Positions 1-45,059 of a stretch of 46,429 nt of DNA are shown here, in pieces. A program made the position numbers and the translations under genes. How positions within the stretch are numbered: the first letter of the stretch is position 1; each line of letters begins with the position of its first letter. This stretch comes from a virus: positions 1 through 46,429 of IMG/VR virus record IMGVR_UViG_3300021347_000005. The stretch is one strand, 5' to 3'. The notes beneath the pieces were generated by a model. That model did no database searches. It was not told the DNA's origin and worked only from the letters and a program-made list of their open reading frames with translations.

Positions 1-2681
1 ATATTACTATTCATTTTTTGTAAACACAAATCGCCGGCAACCTCACCAACCATTGACGATAAAAACATTCCAATCGATTGAGTTTTTCTTTTCTTATCGC
101 CGAACAACTCTTCCATTGCATCACCCAACGGTGTCCCTTCATCAAGATTATCAAAACCACCAAAAGCCCGTTTTAGAATGTCTTTTGTGGTGAATTTTTC
201 TTCACCAAATTCTTTTTTAAGTTCAACAAATAAATTTGTTTTTGCCGCTTGAATTGGATCATTTAGTTGATTATCTTTTATAGCGTCATTTATATCAACA
301 CCTGAAACTTTCAAAAGAGGTTGACGAACAAATTTATCCCATTCTTTGAAACGTGTACCATGTTTTGTTTTTATACCCTTTCCACTTATTATGATTGACA
401 GTACAGCAGATATTATTTTTTTGCGATTATCTAAAGCCCACTGGCCTATATTTTCACGTTTAAAAACCCTTGTGTTAGGATCTGCCATTTTAGGGTTGAT
501 ATTAATTGGATATATTCGGGTTGAAAAATCACCAACAAATTTAATTCCATTACCTGTGAATAACCATAAAACAGAACAAGGAACCTCAACTGTTTTGTTT
601 TCTCCTAATTGACGACCACGAAAAGAGTCTGAGCTCATAACTTTTGCAAGATTGTTGCTTGTTACTTGTGTTCCTTGAGTGATATTATCAAAAAGAACGC
701 AACTATGTCCTTCTTGTAAAATAGCAAGTAATGCTTTTGCAAGTTCTTCTTCATCATTTTCGGGTAATGTTGCCGCCGCTACTGGACGATTAAAAATTGA
801 ATAAGAAATCAATTGTGCAAGTGTAGTTTTACCGCTCGATTGTGTTGGACTTACAATACCAAAACCAGGAAATCCAGAATCACCTGAGATTGTAGGTCGT
901 TGTATAGCTGTCATAAGAGCAGCAACGGCAACAATTTTATCTATCTTTTTTTCAAAAGGAAACTCCGCTAAAACTTCATTTGTCAAAAAATCAAAAGCTT
1001 TTTGCGGTTCCATTTTTGTTATTTTTAATTTATGATGTAAAAAAGTAAAAAGGCCTGTTCTTTTGTCGTAACCTTGTTTTTTTACAAGTTTCCAGTTGTT
1101 ATCAATAAAAGGATGTTCAACAATTCCGGTCAATGGTTTTAAATTCTCGTTTGATCCTTCACCTATTATATGTAACACTCTTGTAGGGCATTCAATATCG
1201 ATTCCAGATTCATTAATATACACAATGTCTTTTTCAAGTCTTGCGGCTAATGTATAGAAAGGTTTTCTATATTGCGATATGATCGGCATTTTTGGATAAT
1301 CAATGCCAAGATCATCAGATTTTAAAGCTTGTCTTATCGTTTTGGGTTTTGCAAGATCGATTGAACATAAAAAATCTGACATTATAAAAACTTCAGGCTT
1401 CTTTTTTGACTTTGCAATTATATCGCTTGAAACTTTTGCAACATCACCTGAATTTGTCGTCAAAACTTCAATCTCATAAATACCACGTGTTTCACGTTCT
1501 TTCGTTCTTTGTTTTCTTGCTGCTTCAATTTTTTTAAGTTTATCTTCTTCTTCAGCAATTTTTATTGTCTTTTTGATGTCAGCAACACCATAGCCTATTT
1601 TTTTTGATATATCAGCTATTGCGGTTGTTCTATCCATCGGTGAAAGGTGTAGAACTTTTTTAGCATAATCCGCTTTAACTGTTGGTGTTTCTTCAGAATA
1701 AATCCACTGTAAAATTTCTTCAATTGTAGGTTTATCAACAATATCAACGGCGCTGTCAACTGTTCTTTCTATATCATCATATCGATCTTGCCATCGATCA
1801 TCTTTATTTTCAGCCGACATCATAGAACCTTGTAACATCTGTTTCACAGTGTCAGGCGGCATTTTTCGATTGATTAGTGATAGAGCTAATGATCGTAATT
1901 CTTCATGATAATTTTCCGATTTTAATATTTTTTCAATACCGGCTTTAAGATTGTAATCAGTTTTCTTAGGTACGATTTTCTTTTTTTCTTCAATTTCGAC
2001 GCTTTCAAAAGTAAAATCAAGATCACCTTCTTTTTTTATGTATCCTAAAAAATTATCAATCGGATCAACAGCGCCAACACATATACGTTTTTGAGTGTAG
2101 ACTGGTTGAGCTGCATTCAATGGTGCTGGATCAATAATATTGCCCCATTCTTTTATTTTATTATATTCTTTTATCCAGTTTCTTATATCAATATTATAAG
2201 CTGATTTTTTTAACCAGAAAAATATATGACATTTCAATGTTTTAGATGTAAGACCATAAGAAGATGAATATTGATAAACATAATCCGCTTTATGGAATTG
2301 TTCTGGAAGATGTTCTTTTATGAAAATATCAATATCATGATCACCATCATATCCATCAATATCAAGACAAAATAGATTGATATTGCGGTTCTTTATTGTT
2401 GGTGGTCGTTTGTCTTTGTGACCATCTCTTGTTCTACGAATCATGTTTTTCTTATCGACACCATCGATAAAATCACCATGGATCATGAAAACAGGATATT
2501 CTTGATTTTGCTCCATGATTTCATAGAAATTATAAAGAGATGAAACAGGTATATCAAAACCTTTGAAAAACATACCCGCATTATAATCTTCATCAAGTTC
2601 CCAGGAATTATTTTTATATCGGAATTGTTTTGTAGCCCTGAAACCATCTGAAACCATCAAAAAATTTATGTTTTGACCCAT
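1..2681 (-). CDS. AEP-type primase fused to SF3/D5-like helicase (crosses the circular junction)
   Basis: This is probably the replication primase-helicase. Reading leftward from ATG at 2681 the frame stays open for 893 codons to base 1 and, using the terminal overlap, continues 10 more codons to TGA at 46267-46269, giving about 903 aa. The N-terminal part has archaeo-eukaryotic primase signatures: LDIDGYDGD near residues 106-114 (metal-binding acidic motif) and a KCHIFF His motif near 150-155. The C-terminal part has an ATPase: Walker A SPTQSSGKTT near residue 612, an acidic Walker B-like VLFDN near 659, a WLFTGNG sensor and a downstream FSTR arginine. The order primase then helicase fits P4/D5-like replicases that prime and unwind at phage origins. 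It is the last gene of the leftward unit that starts near 4466. The domain calls rest on motifs only; the length and fusion are directly visible. Confidence 0.87.
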   Translation of the reverse strand, partial: MGQNINFLMVSDGFRATKQFRYKNNSWELDEDYNAGMFFKGFDIPVSSLYNFYEIMEQNQEYPVFMIHGDFIDGVDKKNMIRRTRDGHKDKRPPTIKNRNINLFCLDIDGYDGDHDIDIFIKEHLPEQFHKADYVYQYSSSYGLTSKTLKCHIFFWLKKSAYNIDIRNWIKEYNKIKEWGNIIDPAPLNAAQPVYTQKRICVGAVDPIDNFLGYIKKEGDLDFTFESVEIEEKKKIVPKKTDYNLKAGIEKILKSENYHEELRSLALSLINRKMPPDTVKQMLQGSMMSAENKDDRWQDRYDDIERTVDSAVDIVDKPTIEEILQWIYSEETPTVKADYAKKVLHLSPMDRTTAIADISKKIGYGVADIKKTIKIAEEEDKLKKIEAARKQRTKERETRGIYEIEVLTTNSGDVAKVSSDIIAKSKKKPEVFIMSDFLCSIDLAKPKTIRQALKSDDLGIDYPKMPIISQYRKPFYTLAARLEKDIVYINESGIDIECPTRVLHIIGEGSNENLKPLTGIVEHPFIDNNWKLVKKQGYDKRTGLFTFLHHKLKITKMEPQKAFDFLTNEVLAEFPFEKKIDKIVAVAALMTAIQRPTISGDSGFPGFGIVSPTQSSGKTTLAQLISYSIFNRPVAAATLPENDEEELAKALLAILQEGHSCVLFDNITQGTQVTSNNLAKVMSSDSFRGRQLGENKTVEVPCSVLWLFTGNGIKFVGDFSTRIYPININPKMADPNTRVFKRENIGQWALDNRKKIISAVLSIIISGKGIKTKHGTRFKEWDKFVRQPLLKVSGVDINDAIKDNQLNDPIQAAKTNLFVELKKEFGEEKFTTKDILKRAFGGFDNLDEGTPLGDAMEELFGDKKRKTQSIGMFLSSMVGEVAGDLCLQKMNSN

Positions 2682-2683
2682 AA

Positions 2684-2863
2684 TTAATAATCTTCATCAT
2701 ATTGTGTTAATTCATTTCTTAAACAAAACTCAGAACAATAAAAAGTTTTTACAAAATTGCTATTATCTTCATAACAATAGTGTTCTAATAAAAATAACCA
2801 ACCAGGAGGTAATTTTTTTGATGTTTTTTCTTCTTCACAATATTTACATTTATATTTTTTCAT
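2684..2863 (-). CDS. Small zinc-ribbon-like protein (59 aa)
   Basis: A 59-residue frame lies between the primase-helicase and the next Cys-rich gene. It starts at ATG 2863 after AAGGGCTAATC and stops 2 bases before the primase start. It contains CKYC near the N terminus and CSEFC near residue 46, a spacing that could bind one zinc. The tight packing in the leftward operon supports it as a real gene. I do not recognise the family; nucleic-acid binding is only a guess from the Cys pattern. Confidence 0.6.
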   Translation of the reverse strand: MKKYKCKYCEEEKTSKKLPPGWLFLLEHYCYEDNSNFVKTFYCSEFCLRNELTQYDEDY

Positions 2864-2865
2864 GA

Positions 2866-3072
2866 TTAGCCCTTAAACATTTTATTATTACATCTTGCTT
2901 TTTTAACAATATACATCATACCTTCATTATTTCCAACAACATCACCATCATAATAACAAATACAATTTTTATCACATTTGTTATTTATCATAGGGCAAAA
3001 TGTATAGGTCATTTTCTTTCTGGATTTTTCAAGTATTTTTTCTGCTTCTTCTTTATTTTCATACTTATTCAT
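2866..3072 (-). CDS. Small Cys-rich hypothetical protein (68 aa)
   Basis: The protein is 68 residues long, starting at ATG 3072 seven bases after a GAGG ribosome site. The N-terminal third is charged and probably helical. A central Cys cluster follows (CPMINNKCDKNCICYYDGD), with one more Cys near the C terminus. This could bind metal. It sits two bases downstream of the preceding gene in the leftward operon. No family is recognised. Confidence 0.65.
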   Translation of the reverse strand: MNKYENKEEAEKILEKSRKKMTYTFCPMINNKCDKNCICYYDGDVVGNNEGMMYIVKKARCNNKMFKG

Positions 3073-3073
3073 A

Positions 3074-3412
3074 CTAAACCTCTATTTCTATTTCAAAATT
3101 AGACATAATGTCAGTAGAAGAATAAGCCTCTAATAGAAATTCTTCTTTCGAATCATGGATATATTTTACCTCATATTCCATTCTATCTTCTATATACCGA
3201 ACAGTATCACCTACCTTAGTATTCTCTTTAGTGCATTGTGCCCACTTCTTTTGTACTTTCTTTTTTAGTATACTTTTGAAATTATGAAGACAGTTGATAT
3301 TTGGTGATATGAATTTAAATATTCTATCACAGCAACTTATTCCCTGTAATTCACACTCAACACAGTTTTTACAGTCACCTACAACTACTTCATATTCATT
3401 TAAGTCTCTCAT
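3074..3412 (-). CDS. Hypothetical Cys-rich protein (112 aa)
   Basis: I chose ATG 3412 (MRDLNEY) because GGAGG sits five bases upstream; an in-frame ATG four codons earlier lies on that ribosome site itself and would overlap the astacin stop codon. The protein has CKNCVEC and CC in its N-terminal third and a beta-rich C-terminal half. It follows the astacin-like lipoprotein gene directly and is probably co-translated with it. The family is not recognised. A protein made with a secreted protease could be a partner or inhibitor, but it has no signal peptide and nothing else supports that. Confidence 0.7.
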   Translation of the reverse strand: MRDLNEYEVVVGDCKNCVECELQGISCCDRIFKFISPNINCLHNFKSILKKKVQKKWAQCTKENTKVGDTVRYIEDRMEYEVKYIHDSKEEFLLEAYSSTDIMSNFEIEIEV

Positions 3413-3413
3413 T

Positions 3414-4049
3414 TTATCCTCCATAAACTTCTTGTAATTTTTTCCAATCTAAAACAGATGGTCTATTATTTGTTATGATTTCAACACCGGTTGAAACCTT
3501 CACCATACTAACTCCATATGTGTTTGATTTATAATGTAAAATTGATTTATAATCATAAGGATATTTCCAATAATCATACAGAAACATGTCTTCATTATAT
3601 ATTTCAAAATCACCTCTTATAGTTGGTGAAACATCTTCCATATTTACAGTTACATAATCATCACGGTCAGGTCGCTGATGTTCATGCGGAAATCCGAGTA
3701 CGTGAAAAACTTCATGGAAAATAATTTTTGTACTAAACGAATTTAACCTAACCACAGGATTTTTACACATTCCTAAAGTGGCGCTGTTTATTTTTTCATC
3801 AGCGATAAAAACAACAACATAAGGTTTTTTCTCATCACATTCATAAAACTCTATTGATGTTTTGTCTTCTATTTCATCAAGAACAAAATATATTCTGTCT
3901 CTTAAGGTTTTATTTTGTTTTATTTCAGGTGATATGTAGTAGAATATTTTTCCATCAACCCATTTTTTGTTTGTTAGTTTTGTTGATTCTTCTTCTATAC
4001 CGCAACCTGTTAGGATTAAAACAATTATTAATAAACATATTTTTTTCAT
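3414..4049 (-). CDS. Astacin-family zinc metalloprotease, predicted lipoprotein
   Basis: Start ATG 4049 is preceded by GGAGGTG and gives 211 aa; an upstream in-frame start would overlap the neighbouring gene. Residues 1-16 are a lipoprotein signal peptide (MKKICLLIIVLILTGC, lipidated Cys16). The catalytic domain begins near W30. Residues 112-126 match the full astacin signature HExxHxxGxxHExxR (HEVFHVLGFPHEHQR), followed by D. Three His bind zinc and the first Glu is the general base. The Met-turn region is SILHY (169-173): the family's usual Met is Leu, while the zinc-proximal Tyr is kept. Only about 14 residues separate Cys16 from the catalytic domain, too few for the inhibitory propeptide of animal astacins. 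The protein probably sits on the outer face of a host membrane. Its target is unknown; superinfection exclusion, receptor masking or competitor killing are all inference. Confidence 0.88.
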   Translation of the reverse strand: MKKICLLIIVLILTGCGIEEESTKLTNKKWVDGKIFYYISPEIKQNKTLRDRIYFVLDEIEDKTSIEFYECDEKKPYVVVFIADEKINSATLGMCKNPVVRLNSFSTKIIFHEVFHVLGFPHEHQRPDRDDYVTVNMEDVSPTIRGDFEIYNEDMFLYDYWKYPYDYKSILHYKSNTYGVSMVKVSTGVEIITNNRPSVLDWKKLQEVYGG

Positions 4050-4050
4050 T

Positions 4051-4425
4051 TTACACCTCCGGGTAATTATCAATGAATAGTTGAGCAATAGCTATTGCAT
4101 ATTTTTTTCGTGTTTCTGATTTTAATTGCGGTAATTTGAAACGATCTAACAAAGATGAACGATATGTACATGCAAGCGGAATTATTTTTGAATTAAATGT
4201 AAATGGACAACCTTTACATATTTTGTTTTTGTCTTTCTGCAATTCATCCAAACCCAAATGAAATTTTGGTTCCGCATATACTTCACAAATAAAATCAAGA
4301 CAAATAGGTTTGTACCTTTTATATAAGGTTGTTTGTTTTTGTGATAAATAGCCGTTTTCAGCTATTTCGTTCCATGTTTCGATCATAGCATCAAAGTGCC
4401 ATTGTATTGATTTGCCATCGATCAT
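4051..4425 (-). CDS. Hypothetical protein (124 aa), first gene of the leftward operon
   Basis: A 124-residue protein starts at ATG 4425 behind AAAAGGAGTAACCT and ends one base before the astacin-like gene, whose ribosome site lies in the 3' end of this gene. It has four Cys, including KICKGCPF, and a helical C terminus. It is the first gene after the consensus leftward promoter at 4466-4494, so it should be made immediately on infection. No family is recognised; small proteins in this position often act on host functions, but nothing here shows that. Confidence 0.75.
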   Translation of the reverse strand: MIDGKSIQWHFDAMIETWNEIAENGYLSQKQTTLYKRYKPICLDFICEVYAEPKFHLGLDELQKDKNKICKGCPFTFNSKIIPLACTYRSSLLDRFKLPQLKSETRKKYAIAIAQLFIDNYPEV

Positions 4426-4465: not shown

Positions 4466-4494
4466 ATTATAAAAAAAATAAAAAAGTTTGTCAA
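4466..4494 (-). promoter_or_regulatory. Consensus sigma70 promoter, leftward
   Basis: Read on the - strand this is TTGACA (4494-4489), a 17-bp spacer rich in T, then TATAAT (4471-4466): a perfect consensus in both boxes with ideal spacing. The first leftward gene starts 41 bases downstream of the -10 box. It probably drives the astacin-containing operon and reads on to the primase-helicase. A second TTGACA on the + strand at 4509-4514 faces away, but no good -10 box lies 16-18 bases from it. Confidence 0.85.
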
Positions 4495-7914: not shown

Positions 7915-7917
7915 TAA

Positions 7918-8058
7918 ATGAATAATATAATAGAACTATACTATCCAAATTTAATTGATTACTTAGAAATAATGAATCGTAATCAATGTACACAATACAA
8001 AACACAACAAGAAGTAAGATCACATTATTTACTTAATGAATTGAGAGTCGTTAAGTGA
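7918..8058 (+). CDS. Tiny hypothetical protein (46 aa)
   Basis: A 46-residue protein with a good ribosome site (TTGGAGGTTTGATAA before ATG). Helical, with mixed charge and one Cys. Its stop overlaps a GTG start (GTGA) of the next small gene. Unknown family. Confidence 0.5.
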   Translation: MNNIIELYYPNLIDYLEIMNRNQCTQYKTQQEVRSHYLLNELRVVK

Positions 8059-8171
8059 ATAAAGAAATATACGGAAAACGTTGTTTAAATTGTTTTAAGA
8101 TATTTTTTTATTCAAGTAATGATTATTGTTGTGAAGAGTGTTTAGAATTGTTTTACAGAAGGAAGTATTAA
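8055..8171 (+). CDS. Tiny FCS-like zinc-finger protein (38 aa)
   Basis: This 38-residue frame starts with GTG overlapping the preceding TGA and ends in TAATG shared with the next start. It encodes CLNCFKIF, then YCCEECLELF, a compact CxxC...CxxC zinc knuckle. The motif and the coupled start and stop make it credible despite its size. It could be a protein-interaction finger. Confidence 0.5.
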   Translation: MNKEIYGKRCLNCFKIFFYSSNDYCCEECLELFYRRKY

Positions 8172-8329
8172 TGACTGAAGAAGAGAAAGAAGAAATAGAT
8201 AAAATAGTTTCATTGTTAACAGAAGGTTATTTAACAGATGAAAAATTGAAAGAGGCTTCAGCAAGATTAAATGTTTTCAAGTTGGAATGGTTGTTTGGTC
8301 GTAGTTTAGAAGTAAAGGAAATTCACTAA
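8171..8329 (+). CDS. Small acidic helical protein (52 aa)
   Basis: Start ATG 8171 (MTEEEKEE) is chosen because AAGGAAG precedes it and it overlaps the previous stop; an in-frame upstream start at 8138 would lie inside the zinc-finger gene. The product is acidic and helical, without Cys or membrane segments. It ends on the base where the next gene begins. Function unknown. Confidence 0.55.
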   Translation: MTEEEKEEIDKIVSLLTEGYLTDEKLKEASARLNVFKLEWLFGRSLEVKEIH

Positions 8330-8568
8330 TGGACAAAGAGATTTTTAAAAGTATTGAGTCGTTGCATGTTAAAGTTGATAATTTAAACGAAAAAGTATCA
8401 GTGATGCCTTGTTCTGTTAATAACAATCGACTAAACAATTTGGAAAAAGTAGTCTATGGCGCTGTAAAACTAATACTGGTTGGTTTTATAGTTTCATTGG
8501 TTTTTCTTGTTATGCCAAAAAATAGTAAACCTGCATCTGCAAACGCAAGTGTTGTGAAGGTGAAATGA
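8329..8568 (+). CDS. XhlA/hemolysin-like small membrane protein (79 aa)
   Basis: Residues 1-42 form a charged, coiled-coil-like segment with an RLNNLEKVVYG motif, followed by one transmembrane helix (about 45-64) and a short basic tail. This layout resembles XhlA-type phage proteins that work with holins in lysis. The larger holin-like protein is at 11837. An alternative is a tail- or packaging-linked membrane protein. The call is from architecture only. Confidence 0.5.
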   Translation: MDKEIFKSIESLHVKVDNLNEKVSVMPCSVNNNRLNNLEKVVYGAVKLILVGFIVSLVFLVMPKNSKPASANASVVKVK

Positions 8569-8717
8569 TGAGAATATATTTATCAGAAGATCCAATAAAT
8601 GAAAATGATATTTTATTATATCGATGTAAATTCCCAAAATATACAGGGTTGATATTAATGGCAACTTTTATTTTAGGTTTTTCTTTTATAACTCTTTGTG
8701 TTTTGTTTTCGATATGA
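8565..8717 (+). CDS. Small membrane protein (50 aa)
   Basis: ATG 8565 overlaps the previous TGA (ATGA), with a second ATG next to it. The product has a soluble N-terminal 28 residues and a C-terminal transmembrane helix (about 31-50). It lies next to the XhlA-like protein, so the two may act together in the membrane. Its own stop overlaps the next start (ATGA). Confidence 0.5.
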   Translation: MMRIYLSEDPINENDILLYRCKFPKYTGLILMATFILGFSFITLCVLFSI

Positions 8718-11836: not shown

Positions 11837-12259
11837 ATGGGATTTTTTAGTTGGATAACAGGCGCTAAAAGCGTCGATAAAACTTTGGATATTATTGACA
11901 AGTCTTCTGACGGAATCATGAAAGGACTTGATAAGGTTTGGTATACAAAAGAAGAAAAAGCAGAAAACTTTGTTAAGCGTTTAGAGATTGCGGAACAAAT
12001 GTCAAAAACACATATTGAGTTGATGAAAGCAACCGCTGATGAAAATACAACAAGAAGTATAACAAGGCGTGTAACCGCAATTGTGATTTTGATACTTACC
12101 GTATTATCTGTTGTAACATTATGGATTGTTGGTAAATTTGACCCTGAATGGGCTGAATGGATGTTAGAAGTCGTTGAATATTTTCAATTAGGTTGGGCGT
12201 TTATTGCGGTTGTAGTTTATTTCTTCGGTAACCATATGATAACGAGGTTTAAAAAATAA
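11837..12259 (+). CDS. Holin-like membrane protein (GTA-type 3TM holin family)
   Basis: The 140-aa protein has an amphipathic N terminus with a coiled-coil-like region (about 40-75), then RSITRRVTAIVILILTVLSV leading into a transmembrane helix near 76-96 and a second near 117-132, ending FGNHMITRFKK. This resembles 3TM-type holins found in structural gene blocks. It should permeabilise the inner membrane at lysis so that the peptidase encoded at 45379 can reach the wall. AAAGGATAGTTGAT precedes the start. Confidence 0.65.
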   Translation: MGFFSWITGAKSVDKTLDIIDKSSDGIMKGLDKVWYTKEEKAENFVKRLEIAEQMSKTHIELMKATADENTTRSITRRVTAIVILILTVLSVVTLWIVGKFDPEWAEWMLEVVEYFQLGWAFIAVVVYFFGNHMITRFKK

Positions 12260-12858
12260 TGAGCTTAGACTTAAACTCTTTAAAATCTATTGCAAGAACA
12301 ACTTTAAATCATCAAAGCGGTAGATCAGCAATGTTTAAATTTGGGGCTGTTACTACTGTTGACATCAACTCTGAAAAAGTTTTCGAAGAAATAGCTTTCG
12401 GTATTGCAAGGAGATTTAACATTTCGGCATCTGGTGATTATTGGATCATCTTAGACACAACAGGAGTTTCATTAGAAAAAGAAATTGTTGTTCTTCCAAT
12501 TGGTATAACAGGTTTTGGTGCAGGGCCAATTCATATTGATTTCCATCGAAATGTTGTTTTTTCTGGTGGAACTGAAGTAACAGCAATTAATAGATATCAT
12601 GCCTCAACAAATACAGCAGAAACCGTTTTCACTCAAGGTGTAACAGTATCAGACGAAGGTATAGCTTCCCATACACAATGGTTATTGCCATCTGATGGTG
12701 TACCCGCAACATCAATACTTGGTGGACAAGCAAAAGATGATTTAATTTTCGTTCCTGATAAAAATTATAATTATGGTTTGAAATTCACAAACACGGAAGC
12801 TGATATAGCGCAGTGTTCAATTTCATTAACATTTTTTGAAGCAACACTGGAGGTTTAA
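12259..12858 (+). CDS. Putative virion protein, paralogue of the next gene (199 aa)
   Basis: It begins MSLDLNSLKSIARTTL, nearly the same as the next protein, and both continue as beta-rich domains. Here a FHRNVVFSGGTEV...NRYHASTN stretch suggests a jelly-roll-like surface protein. The start overlaps the holin stop (TAATG). The position between lysis and portal genes fits a head fibre or neck decoration protein. Function is not established. Confidence 0.65.
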   Translation: MSLDLNSLKSIARTTLNHQSGRSAMFKFGAVTTVDINSEKVFEEIAFGIARRFNISASGDYWIILDTTGVSLEKEIVVLPIGITGFGAGPIHIDFHRNVVFSGGTEVTAINRYHASTNTAETVFTQGVTVSDEGIASHTQWLLPSDGVPATSILGGQAKDDLIFVPDKNYNYGLKFTNTEADIAQCSISLTFFEATLEV

Positions 12859-38007: not shown

Positions 38008-38433
38008 TCAAAATTTATCAATAGTTACAATTTCTATATCTTTTTGTCTTCCTATTTTTTCAGCCGTTTTTACATTAAAAACTAAAAGGTCAATACTTTT
38101 TTTATGTCTTTTATTCATTAGATCATTAACATACCAAACACCATACCCATAAACATAAATTTTCTTGCCAAGTAAATGTTTTAAATCAACAGATACAGCA
38201 CATGAATAGCCTGGAATTGGTTTCATCATCAGCGCAGTGTTTTCAAGATCTTCATTACATTCTTTTTCTCTCAAAGTATATGCGGTTAATATTACTTTAA
38301 TATATTCTGGTTCTTTTTGTTGTTCAATATTGTGGATTTTTTGTTCAAGTGTTTTTATTCTATAATAGTTTTTGTCAATAGAAATACAAATGAAAATTGA
38401 CACAATAAGTGATAAAAAAATTACCTGCTTCAT
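38008..38433 (-). CDS. Membrane-anchored 3D-domain protein
   Basis: Start ATG 38433 (MKQVIFLS) is chosen because GGAGG sits five bases upstream; an in-frame TTG four codons earlier lies on that site. Residues 3-18 are a membrane anchor and a short coiled coil follows (about 22-38). The rest matches the 3D domain found with lytic transglycosylases: LTAYTLREKECNE, then the Asp-bearing SVDLKH, YVNDLMN and SIDLLVF. The three Asp probably form the active site on cell-wall glycan. It may help entry or lysis. Confidence 0.72.
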   Translation of the reverse strand: MKQVIFLSLIVSIFICISIDKNYYRIKTLEQKIHNIEQQKEPEYIKVILTAYTLREKECNEDLENTALMMKPIPGYSCAVSVDLKHLLGKKIYVYGYGVWYVNDLMNKRHKKSIDLLVFNVKTAEKIGRQKDIEIVTIDKF

Positions 38434-38434
38434 T

Positions 38435-39976
38435 CTATCCTCCAAATTTATATTTTTTGATTTCTGGATAAGGTTTTGATTCCTTAACTAAAATTTTTAT
38501 TGGCTTTACTAAATCATCAAGTAAACTCATTGCTTCTTTAACAGTTTCAGGAACATCATGTGGACTTCTTCTTTTCCACCATTTTTCAGCTTTTGTTCGA
38601 GCATATCCAGTGTGTTCAACACAAACATAGTCAGTGAAAGTTTTAATGCCGCAAAGATATGTTACCAACAACATCGGTATTCCTTTTTTACCAACTTGAT
38701 ATAAATAACTAACACTATCAACATCATAAACAAATTCAGGTGTTATTACTTCACGTTCATCAGTTTTTGATGTCAATTTGTGTTTAAATTTGAATTTTTG
38801 ATCACAACAAGGACAAATACGAACAGCCGCATAAACAAGTTCATAACATCTTTCACATTCTTTCATTATAGCTTCACCAGTGCCAGAACCTTTAATTTTT
38901 ATAACCGGATTATCGATCGGGCCAAGTCGCTTGAGATTACCAGCAAAATCCAGAACAAGACAATTTTTCTTATTTGATGAAGGTCTTAAACCACGACCAA
39001 TTATTTGAACATGTAAATTTGGTGATTCAGTCGGCCTTAATAATCCAATCAAGTCAACTTCAGGAACATCAAAACCAGTTGTCAACATGGCAACAGAAAC
39101 AAGAGCTTGAAATTCATTATGTCTAAAACCATCAATTATTTTATCTCTATCACCTTTCATTTTCGAATGAACACAAACTGCTGAAACACCATTTATTTTC
39201 AATTCACTGGTTATATTTTCCGCATGATCAATGTCAATTGCAAATAACAACCATTTTTTTCGACTGGATTTATATCTTAATAATTCACGAACAATATCTC
39301 TTGTAACCAAAGGCCTATCAAAAGCGATCGATAATTCTTTTGTGATATAATCACCAGCTTGTTTTTTAATGTCTTTTGTATCAAATTTGTTGTTAGTTCC
39401 TTTTGCGGTTACTTCACAAAGATAACCAAGTTTTTGTAATTTTTTAATCGGAATATCATAAACAATTTTTGAAAAAAAAGCGTCTTCACCTCTTGTTAAA
39501 TATCCTGTTCCTAATCGATATGGTGTTGCTGTGAACCCTATAACCCGCTTTTTTACTTGGCTAAAAAATTTATGATACATTCCGTTTCTGATGTGTGGTA
39601 TTGTATGAGCTTCATCAACAATAATAACATTAAACTGATTGAAAATTTCTGGTTTGTTATAAATTGATTGTATACCCGCAACTGTTATTTGTTTAATTGT
39701 TTTTGAATTTAGCCCGGCCGAATACAAACCTATGTCTTTTTTCAAATGAGTTTTAAGCGTGTGGTAATTCTGATAAAGTATTTCTTTGACATGGCTGATT
39801 ATGAGGATTTTCTGGCCGGGCCATTTTTCAATAACTGTTTTACAAAATCCACTTATTATAACAGTTTTGCCTGATCCAGTTGGAGCTTGGACAAGCGGAT
39901 TCCCTTTTTTCTTTGAACGAAAAAATTTAAAAATTGGATCTATTGCTTCTTGTTGATAGTCTCTAAGTTTGATCAT
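38435..39976 (-). CDS. SF2 DNA helicase (DEAH-type)
   Basis: The 513-aa protein shows the SF2 motifs: I APTGSGKTVI (33-42), II VDEAHT, III TATPYRLG, IV-V region LLFAIDIDHAEN and TTGFDVPEVD, and VI QIIGRGLRPS. A zinc-like cluster (CERCYEL, CPCCDQKF) comes after the helicase core. It resembles RecQ/UvrB-like phage helicases of the DEAD-box restriction type. It probably supports fork movement or recombination with the nuclease and Sak4-like proteins encoded just upstream. Confidence 0.9.
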   Translation of the reverse strand: MIKLRDYQQEAIDPIFKFFRSKKKGNPLVQAPTGSGKTVIISGFCKTVIEKWPGQKILIISHVKEILYQNYHTLKTHLKKDIGLYSAGLNSKTIKQITVAGIQSIYNKPEIFNQFNVIIVDEAHTIPHIRNGMYHKFFSQVKKRVIGFTATPYRLGTGYLTRGEDAFFSKIVYDIPIKKLQKLGYLCEVTAKGTNNKFDTKDIKKQAGDYITKELSIAFDRPLVTRDIVRELLRYKSSRKKWLLFAIDIDHAENITSELKINGVSAVCVHSKMKGDRDKIIDGFRHNEFQALVSVAMLTTGFDVPEVDLIGLLRPTESPNLHVQIIGRGLRPSSNKKNCLVLDFAGNLKRLGPIDNPVIKIKGSGTGEAIMKECERCYELVYAAVRICPCCDQKFKFKHKLTSKTDEREVITPEFVYDVDSVSYLYQVGKKGIPMLLVTYLCGIKTFTDYVCVEHTGYARTKAEKWWKRRSPHDVPETVKEAMSLLDDLVKPIKILVKESKPYPEIKKYKFGG

Positions 39977-44678: not shown

Positions 44679-44838
44679 CGATAATTTCCCTTAAAAGTTT
44701 TTTTGTTAAATCAATATCTTTTGACATGCGGATTTTTAAATATTGACAATCATCGCACATTCTACACTTGTTTTTGTATTCAGTTAGTTTTGAACATGCC
44801 CTGCATTTATATTTTTTGAATGTTGGGGTATATCTCAT
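44641..44838 (-). CDS. Small zinc-finger protein (65 aa)
   Basis: The 65-residue protein has CRACSKL near 12-18 and CRMCDDC near 26-32, a likely zinc knuckle, followed by a basic helix. The start overlaps the lipoprotein stop (ATGA) and the end overlaps the dUTPase start by 38 bases. It may bind nucleic acid. No family recognised. Confidence 0.6.
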   Translation of the reverse strand: MRYTPTFKKYKCRACSKLTEYKNKCRMCDDCQYLKIRMSKDIDLTKKLLREIIDENIQRNTKKNS

Positions 44839-45059
44839 TTTATTGGCTTCCTAAAAGTTACTGATTCATCTTTATTGTCAAAATCATGTACACAAAATGT
44901 ATCTTCTCCGCATTTCTCAATAAGATATTTTTCTCCAGTTTTTATGTTTTGTACAATTGCTCCGTTCAATTGTCGAATATCATAAGGTATTAATTTTTTG
45001 TTGATTGTTACACAACCGCCTATAACCGAAATTAAAACTAAAATCAAAAACTCTTTCAT
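44835..45059 (-). CDS. Small predicted lipoprotein (74 aa)
   Basis: The signal peptide ends in the lipobox IGGC (Cys16), followed by a 58-residue soluble part (VTINKKLIPYDIRQLNG onward, two more Cys). Small lipoproteins near a phage peptidase can be outer spanins, but a matching inner spanin is not clear here. Alternatively it changes the host surface. GGATAAATA precedes the start. Confidence 0.6.
   Translation of the reverse strand: MKEFLILVLISVIGGCVTINKKLIPYDIRQLNGAIVQNIKTGEKYLIEKCGEDTFCVHDFDNKDESVTFRKPIK

Follow-up and report, generated by a model that had tools for sequence, protein, structure and literature searches.

A predicted lipid-anchored, prodomain-free astacin protease in a myovirus genome and its relatives in other viral contigs

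Why would a tailed phage encode a protease of the astacin family (M12A) that appears to be tethered by a lipid anchor and lacks a prodomain, and what would such an enzyme do to the host? The question arises from a 46,429-base linear IMG/VR record (hereafter the window, i.e. the whole stretch of DNA that was analysed) which belongs to a myovirus: it contains genes for terminase, portal, head protease, major head protein, sheath, tape measure and baseplate, and further genes for a DNA polymerase, an NrdD-like reductase, Sak4, SSB and a Cas4-like exonuclease. Because DNA polymerase, NrdD, Sak4 and SSB are present and no integrase was found among the window proteins scanned, the phage looks lytic.

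The gene of interest lies on the minus strand at 3414..4049 (start ATG at 4049, stop at 3414) and codes for a 211 amino acid protein, characterized as a lipid-anchored astacin (M12A) metalloprotease on the basis of its ORF, Pfam, alignment, AlphaFold and Foldseek. ATG 4049 is the likely start since a Shine-Dalgarno sequence read from the DNA (GGAGG; 4056..4060, minus strand) sits 6 nt ahead of it; initiation at a more distal TTG (4088) was considered unlikely. The initial annotation, made from the letters alone, had described a type II signal peptide with Cys16, a complete HExxHxxGxxHExxR signature and a catalytic domain almost directly behind the anchor, and all three descriptions hold. The signal peptide covers residues 1-15 and is followed by the lipobox cysteine (LTG-C; 4002..4049, minus strand). 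The N-terminus (MKKICLLIIVLILTG up to the cysteine) consists of two lysines, a hydrophobic stretch and the lipobox L-T-G-C16, so that the positive n-region, hydrophobic stretch and +1 Cys of bacterial lipoproteins can all be recognized in the sequence. The astacin domain extends over residues 29-209 (3423..3965, minus strand; also supported by the AlphaFold model and Foldseek); its match to PF01400 (Pfam Astacin; E = 2.1e-27), at 96.5 bits against a cut-off of 22.5, is far from chance, and among relatives with a solved structure the closest by sequence is crayfish astacin (3.9e-15). Within the domain, the zinc-binding and family-glutamate motif HEVFHVLGFPHEHQR (residues 112-126; 3672..3716, minus strand) falls in conserved alignment columns and is part of the longer signature HEVFHVLGFPHEHQRPDRD, in which H112, E113, H116, G119, H122, E123 and R126 (interspersed with VF, VL, FP and HQ) are extended, after a proline, by D128, R129 and D130. 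The zinc ligands, the catalytic and family glutamates, the arginine and the lipobox cysteine are invariant across 17 of 17 aligned homologues.

Modelling of the fold had been proposed in the initial annotation as a check on which the astacin assignment should stand or fall. The AlphaFold2 model, built from a 17-sequence alignment of the window protein and the proteins of the other loci, has a pLDDT of 90 and a pTM of 0.84, the sole segment with pLDDT <50 being residues 17-22, immediately past the lipobox cysteine. In a Foldseek comparison with the PDB the best 23 chains are all animal astacins (best E = 2.0e-14; query TM 0.67-0.76), and the bacterial astacin myroilysin ranks after them. A comparison of the same type with a library of predicted viral structures gave one strong match, the metalloendopeptidase of Lutzomyia reovirus 2, which is the viral astacin named in PMC9848320. 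Thus, as far as prediction goes, the window protein has the astacin fold.

One element of the active site departs from the family. The Met-turn reads SILHY (residues 169-173; 3531..3545, minus strand), with Leu for Met as had been noted initially, and with the Tyr zinc ligand kept, so that the SIMHY sequence of M12A is not reproduced. This Leu is restricted to the window protein and its relatives in two other viral contigs (L014 and L016); the other phage members have Met, as do 77 of the 88 astacins compared. The protein was nevertheless filed under M12A since profile, motif and fold all agree with that family, as a catalytic-domain variant and not as a canonical astacin. In other metzincins, exchange of Met for Leu led to a minor loss of activity (a gelatinase) or to a clear loss (protease C), the protein being isolable, and Leu in the Met-turn is well tolerated by one matrix metalloproteinase (PMC1266349). 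Given that range from mild to clear, proteolytic activity of the window protein is likely by analogy, perhaps lowered by the Leu. The substitution could also be taken as a sign that the fold is kept in a catalytically dead protein acting through binding, a reading which would accommodate the one-residue insertion in the zinc motif of the divergent viral member L168 and the lack of the first strand in the prophage member L151 (both described below). We regard it as very improbable, because the window protein retains all three His, the two Glu, the Arg and the Tyr ligand, none of which varies among the 17 homologues, and because of the matrix metalloproteinase precedent.

The second departure concerns latency. 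Known astacin prodomains measure 34-486 residues (PMC9848320); W30, the first conserved residue of the catalytic domain, lies 14 residues past Cys16, which leaves no space for one. The canonical architecture, with a prodomain after the signal peptide, is absent (the domain starts 13 residues past Cys16): the protein is not a canonical astacin, and it does possess an M12A catalytic domain. The zinc motif starts at residue 100-146 in 17 short members, whereas for 71 other astacins the median start is residue 178; the division is not absolute, an early motif being found in a few other bacterial astacins too. With the members of M12A (crayfish astacin, meprins, BMP1/tolloid, myroilysin and flavastacin) the window protein has in common the catalytic domain, the HExxHxxGxxHExxRxDRD signature, the family Glu, the Tyr ligand and the predicted fold; it differs from them in the missing prodomain, in a mature N-terminus that would carry a lipid anchor instead of being free, in the Leu of the Met-turn and in its location in a tailed phage. 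The sole named NCBIfam model that matches it is LegP (NF045530; E = 5.9e-18), an identity that was rejected at 65.3 bits against an equivalog cut-off of 300; unlike the window protein, LegP is named as a T4SS effector.

The gene belongs to what is probably a single leftward operon, as judged from genes that overlap or abut. Ahead of it is a sigma-70-type consensus promoter (TTGACA-17-TATAAT, 12 of 12 positions; 4466..4494, minus strand), the one exact TTGACA-N(16-18)-TATAAT in the window; an exact match also occurred in 13 of 100 shuffled sequences (0.13 expected), and the match alone is therefore modest evidence. The statement that the astacin gene is second behind the strongest promoter of the genome is right within the window, since this consensus is unique and the gene follows that at 4425-4051. 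The latter, gene 1 (124 amino acids; 4051..4425, minus strand), overlaps the astacin ribosome-binding site with its 3' end and was without match in family searches. Downstream of the astacin gene, and in the same operon, three neighbouring genes for small Cys-rich proteins occupy 2684-3424 on the minus strand: gene 3 (116 amino acids; 3074..3424), which overlaps the astacin gene by 11 nt, and gene 4 (68 amino acids; 2866..3072), both with no confident family, and gene 5 (59 amino acids; 2684..2863), with no family. Gene 6 (at least 893 amino acids; 3..2681, minus strand) leaves the contig and has no Pfam match; we read it as primase/helicase-like from its length, a GxxSSGKTT motif and its position. 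A relative of 59% identity exists in phage contig G015. Since that contig, which is probably incomplete, has the downstream primase-like gene and no homologue of the 2684-4425 block, the block looks accessory. Elsewhere in the window, at 44835-45059 (minus strand), there is a second small predicted lipoprotein (74 amino acids, IGG-C) with no family match.

The features considered so far, i.e. gene, predicted fold, catalytic motif, lipobox and operon, were established computationally, as was the recurrence of such genes in unrelated phages. A single-sequence scan of viral contigs with the window astacin gave no match. Alignment-seeded scans of 2.9 million viral contigs (pattern-seeded and of limited recall, the contigs being mostly fragments) revealed short, prodomain-free astacins with a lipobox and a full zinc motif in 10 other IMG/VR contigs: L013 (two copies), L014, L015, L016, L018, L026, L027 and L028 (identical proteins), L161 and L164. 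The member in the 236-kb contig L168 has one extra residue in the zinc motif and was for that reason counted as divergent, outside the complete-motif set; the astacins of L017, L019 and L020, which are longer and divergent, were left out of the short class. The two lipid-anchored astacins of L013, a 100-kb contig, differ from each other and lie on opposite strands (7917-8579 and 11921-12535). Phage character is indicated by a terminase in L018 (2.7e-80), tail fibre genes in L026, L014 and L015, and a DnaB helicase and a glycosyltransferase in L013; this check was uneven among contigs, and L027 is without a hallmark.

Tblastn with the window astacin against 50,697 GenBank phage records gave no match, even at E = 10, which bears out the initial view that astacins are rare in tailed phages. 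The L015 and L013 astacins likewise gave no credible match; six weak matches to the L015 query (E 0.7-0.9, mostly baseplate hub protein) were taken as chance. No paper on a phage astacin was found in a literature search on astacins with phages or prophages. The catalytic family itself is known; the combination of phage setting, lipid anchor and lack of a latency segment, recurring as a class, was absent from the papers searched.

Identity between the window protein and the other phage members is 27-36%, which indicates that its gene is not a recent capture. Comparison of L014 with L016 (dN 0.22, dS 0.83, dN/dS ~0.27) argues for purifying selection and hence a maintained function. As to position, the astacin gene comes straight after genes for a Sak4-like ATPase and an SSB-like protein in L015 and L161, is separated by one small gene from a DnaB-like helicase gene in L013, and lies upstream of the primase-like gene in the window; in L014, L015 and L026 it ends its gene cluster, facing the tail-fibre module. 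It had been suggested that phage astacins with lipoboxes might share an early position. This was borne out in part: L013, L015, L161 and the Mu-like prophage presented below agree with it, and what they share is a placement on the replication/transposition side. Replication-side phage genes are usually expressed early. Early expression of the astacin is thus a reasonable inference, and the protein would be made long before lysis, as initially thought. The same placement bears on the idea that the protease serves release, weakening an outer layer rich in protein (sheath, S-layer or lipoprotein-peptidoglycan tethers) late in infection as a spanin-like or lysis helper. An envelope location would suit this role and a weak peptidase-like lysis candidate exists on the same strand of the window (38008-38445). 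However, the gene sits by the promoter of a replication-side operon, and in other phages its neighbours serve replication or transposition, which is not the setting of a lysis cassette. Early synthesis of a protease that has no latch would, moreover, mean early action; we consider a function in release improbable.

Relatives were also sought in cellular genomes. An astacin match was present in 30 of 296 sampled Spirochaetota genomes; with the window's major head protein, used in a host search, 296 Spirochaetota genomes yielded five weak matches (25-29% identity). In one genome, G129, an astacin shares its contig with such a head protein homologue. This contig (G129:C28; L151 and L152) contains a Mu-like prophage in which transposase, MuB-like, Gam-like and gp16-like genes are directly followed by a lipobox astacin gene (204 amino acids; L151:8563-9177), and whose terminase, portal, head protease and major head protein belong to the same PHROG families as those of the window. 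The L151 astacin has no first domain strand and keeps HEIGHVIGLMHEHQRPD. Among cellular proteins the closest relatives come from MAGs of Spirochaetota and SAR324; they are short lipid-anchored astacins for which no name was found in the literature. Like the phage proteins, these (L030-L032, L037, L040, L045, L047 and L050) are short (217-238 amino acids), with a lipobox Cys and HEHQRPDRD, and their first conserved Trp is mostly 8-23 residues past the lipobox Cys. Unlike the window protein, they are chromosomal, keep Met in the Met-turn and mostly belong to an operon of four genes. This operon, which encodes the short astacin, a porin-like protein, a multihaem cytochrome and a small membrane protein, is conserved in Spirochaetota and SAR324 MAGs (L032:6001-8921, L037:6001-8868, L040:5911-8937, L045:5929-8829, L047:792-3674, L050:5956-8904 and L031:5389-8255). 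More broadly, a scan of GTDB species genomes yielded 136 confirmed astacin relatives. Many of the genomes concerned are environmental MAGs, a finding hard to reconcile with the published statement that astacins of bacteria occur mainly in animal colonisers (PMC9848320).

In a phylogenetic tree the phage and short bacterial astacins fall on one side of a branch (support 97/93), with ten other bacterial astacins on the other. The branching order inside the former group is weak (single phage clade, AU p = 0.35), and the tree is compatible both with one phage clade and with more than one transfer, neither being rejected. Chromosomal sister genes in Spirochaetota and SAR324, a phage copy in a prophage (L151) and the accessory look of the gene would be expected if the phage carried a captured host lipoprotein protease as fitness cargo (a moron) that serves the nutrition of an infected or lysogenic host or remodels its surface. 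But the window phage looks lytic, in which case long-term host fitness matters little, and divergence among the phage copies is as large as that of the entire clade, unlike that of fresh captures; the cargo explanation appears quite improbable.

The best explanation, which we hold tentatively and at a little less than even probability, is an early envelope-tethered protease that cuts host envelope proteins, resulting in superinfection exclusion or receptor removal. Here activity, lipidation, membrane side, substrate, timing and host are what we infer. The phage would make the prodomain-free astacin early, from its replication-side operon; the host Sec pathway would export it and Cys16 would be lipidated, tethering it to the host envelope, most likely at the outer membrane (+2 Gly; acidic EEE at +4 to +6). 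With no latency segment, it would be active once folded, and would cleave one host envelope protein, or a small number of them, in the exposed domains. The likeliest gain would be superinfection exclusion together with receptor loss, which would also spare progeny from adsorbing to debris. The earlier proposal that host surface proteins are cleaved against superinfecting phages, receptors or competitors plausibly fits the comparative context. In favour of the explanation are (i) Pfam and PDB sequence matches and the confident AlphaFold model, (ii) catalytic residues and lipobox Cys kept in the 17 homologues, (iii) recurrence in the 10 viral contigs, L168 and the Mu-like prophage, (iv) an early or replication context in several phages, (v) the low dN/dS and the apparently accessory nature of the block, absent from G015, and (vi) tail-fibre neighbours in L014, L015 and L026, comparable to the location of llp beside a receptor-binding-protein gene (PMC9586334).

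The role would be that of T5 Llp, by cleavage instead of blocking. Llp is an early lipoprotein that acts on the periplasmic side to block the receptor FhuA, and its gene adjoins that of the receptor-binding protein (PMC9586334). The phage astacins resemble it in predicted export, lipid anchor and early position, and some in their proximity to tail fibres. However, Llp, the Cor family and TP-J34 Ltp are phage lipoproteins that bind without enzymatic activity, Llp and Cor being small, whereas the window protein carries a protease; and a literature search for receptor cleavage by a phage protease found no report of it. Homology to Llp/Cor was rejected: phrog_1119 aligns at residues 1-33 only, i.e. 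at the signal peptide (E = 0.014). Further points weigh against this explanation. The Met-turn Leu may lower activity, and the acidic residues past Cys16 fit no published lipoprotein export signal exactly; the Bacteroidetes signal, which they resemble, has a polar or Lys residue (PMC5080379) that is absent here, and the stretch was kept as a hint only.

Another is that the chromosomal sisters stand beside porin-like and cytochrome genes, so that their ancestral job may be housekeeping. Their conserved operon, described above, also suggests that the natural partners of these proteases may be periplasmic. Small variable early phage genes often serve host takeover. A tethered protease facing the periplasm could accordingly degrade host stress sensors, porin-cytochrome complexes or envelope defence proteins and leave the phage receptor alone, and Llp, the nearest analogue, is itself periplasmic (PMC9586334). 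On the other side, no defence or stress target was identified, and acidic residues past the lipobox are on average commoner in phage than in chromosomal members, a hint from a small sample that sorting is outward in some hosts. Such a takeover or counter-defence function is, in our estimate, unlikely. Returning to cleavage of surface proteins and receptors, the broadest form of the claim is that several unrelated tailed-phage lineages share an undescribed subfamily of prodomain-free, lipid-tethered astacins that shave receptors or surfaces early and so provide proteolytic superinfection exclusion, with spirochaetes among the hosts; we find this possible but doubtful.

A 2023 survey of >25,000 astacins reported a prodomain across all phyla and a single viral astacin, that of a reovirus (PMC9848320). 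Both statements are contradicted by the phage and spirochaete astacins, in which a lipid anchor leads straight to the catalytic domain, and one may ask how an envelope protease with no latch is tolerated by the cell. If host receptors are indeed trimmed, superinfection would be excluded in a new way, with the phage enzymes as the enzymatic equivalent of T5 Llp. The prophage copy in G129 and the chromosomal sisters in spirochaetes also point to possible hosts, in a group about whose phages little is known.
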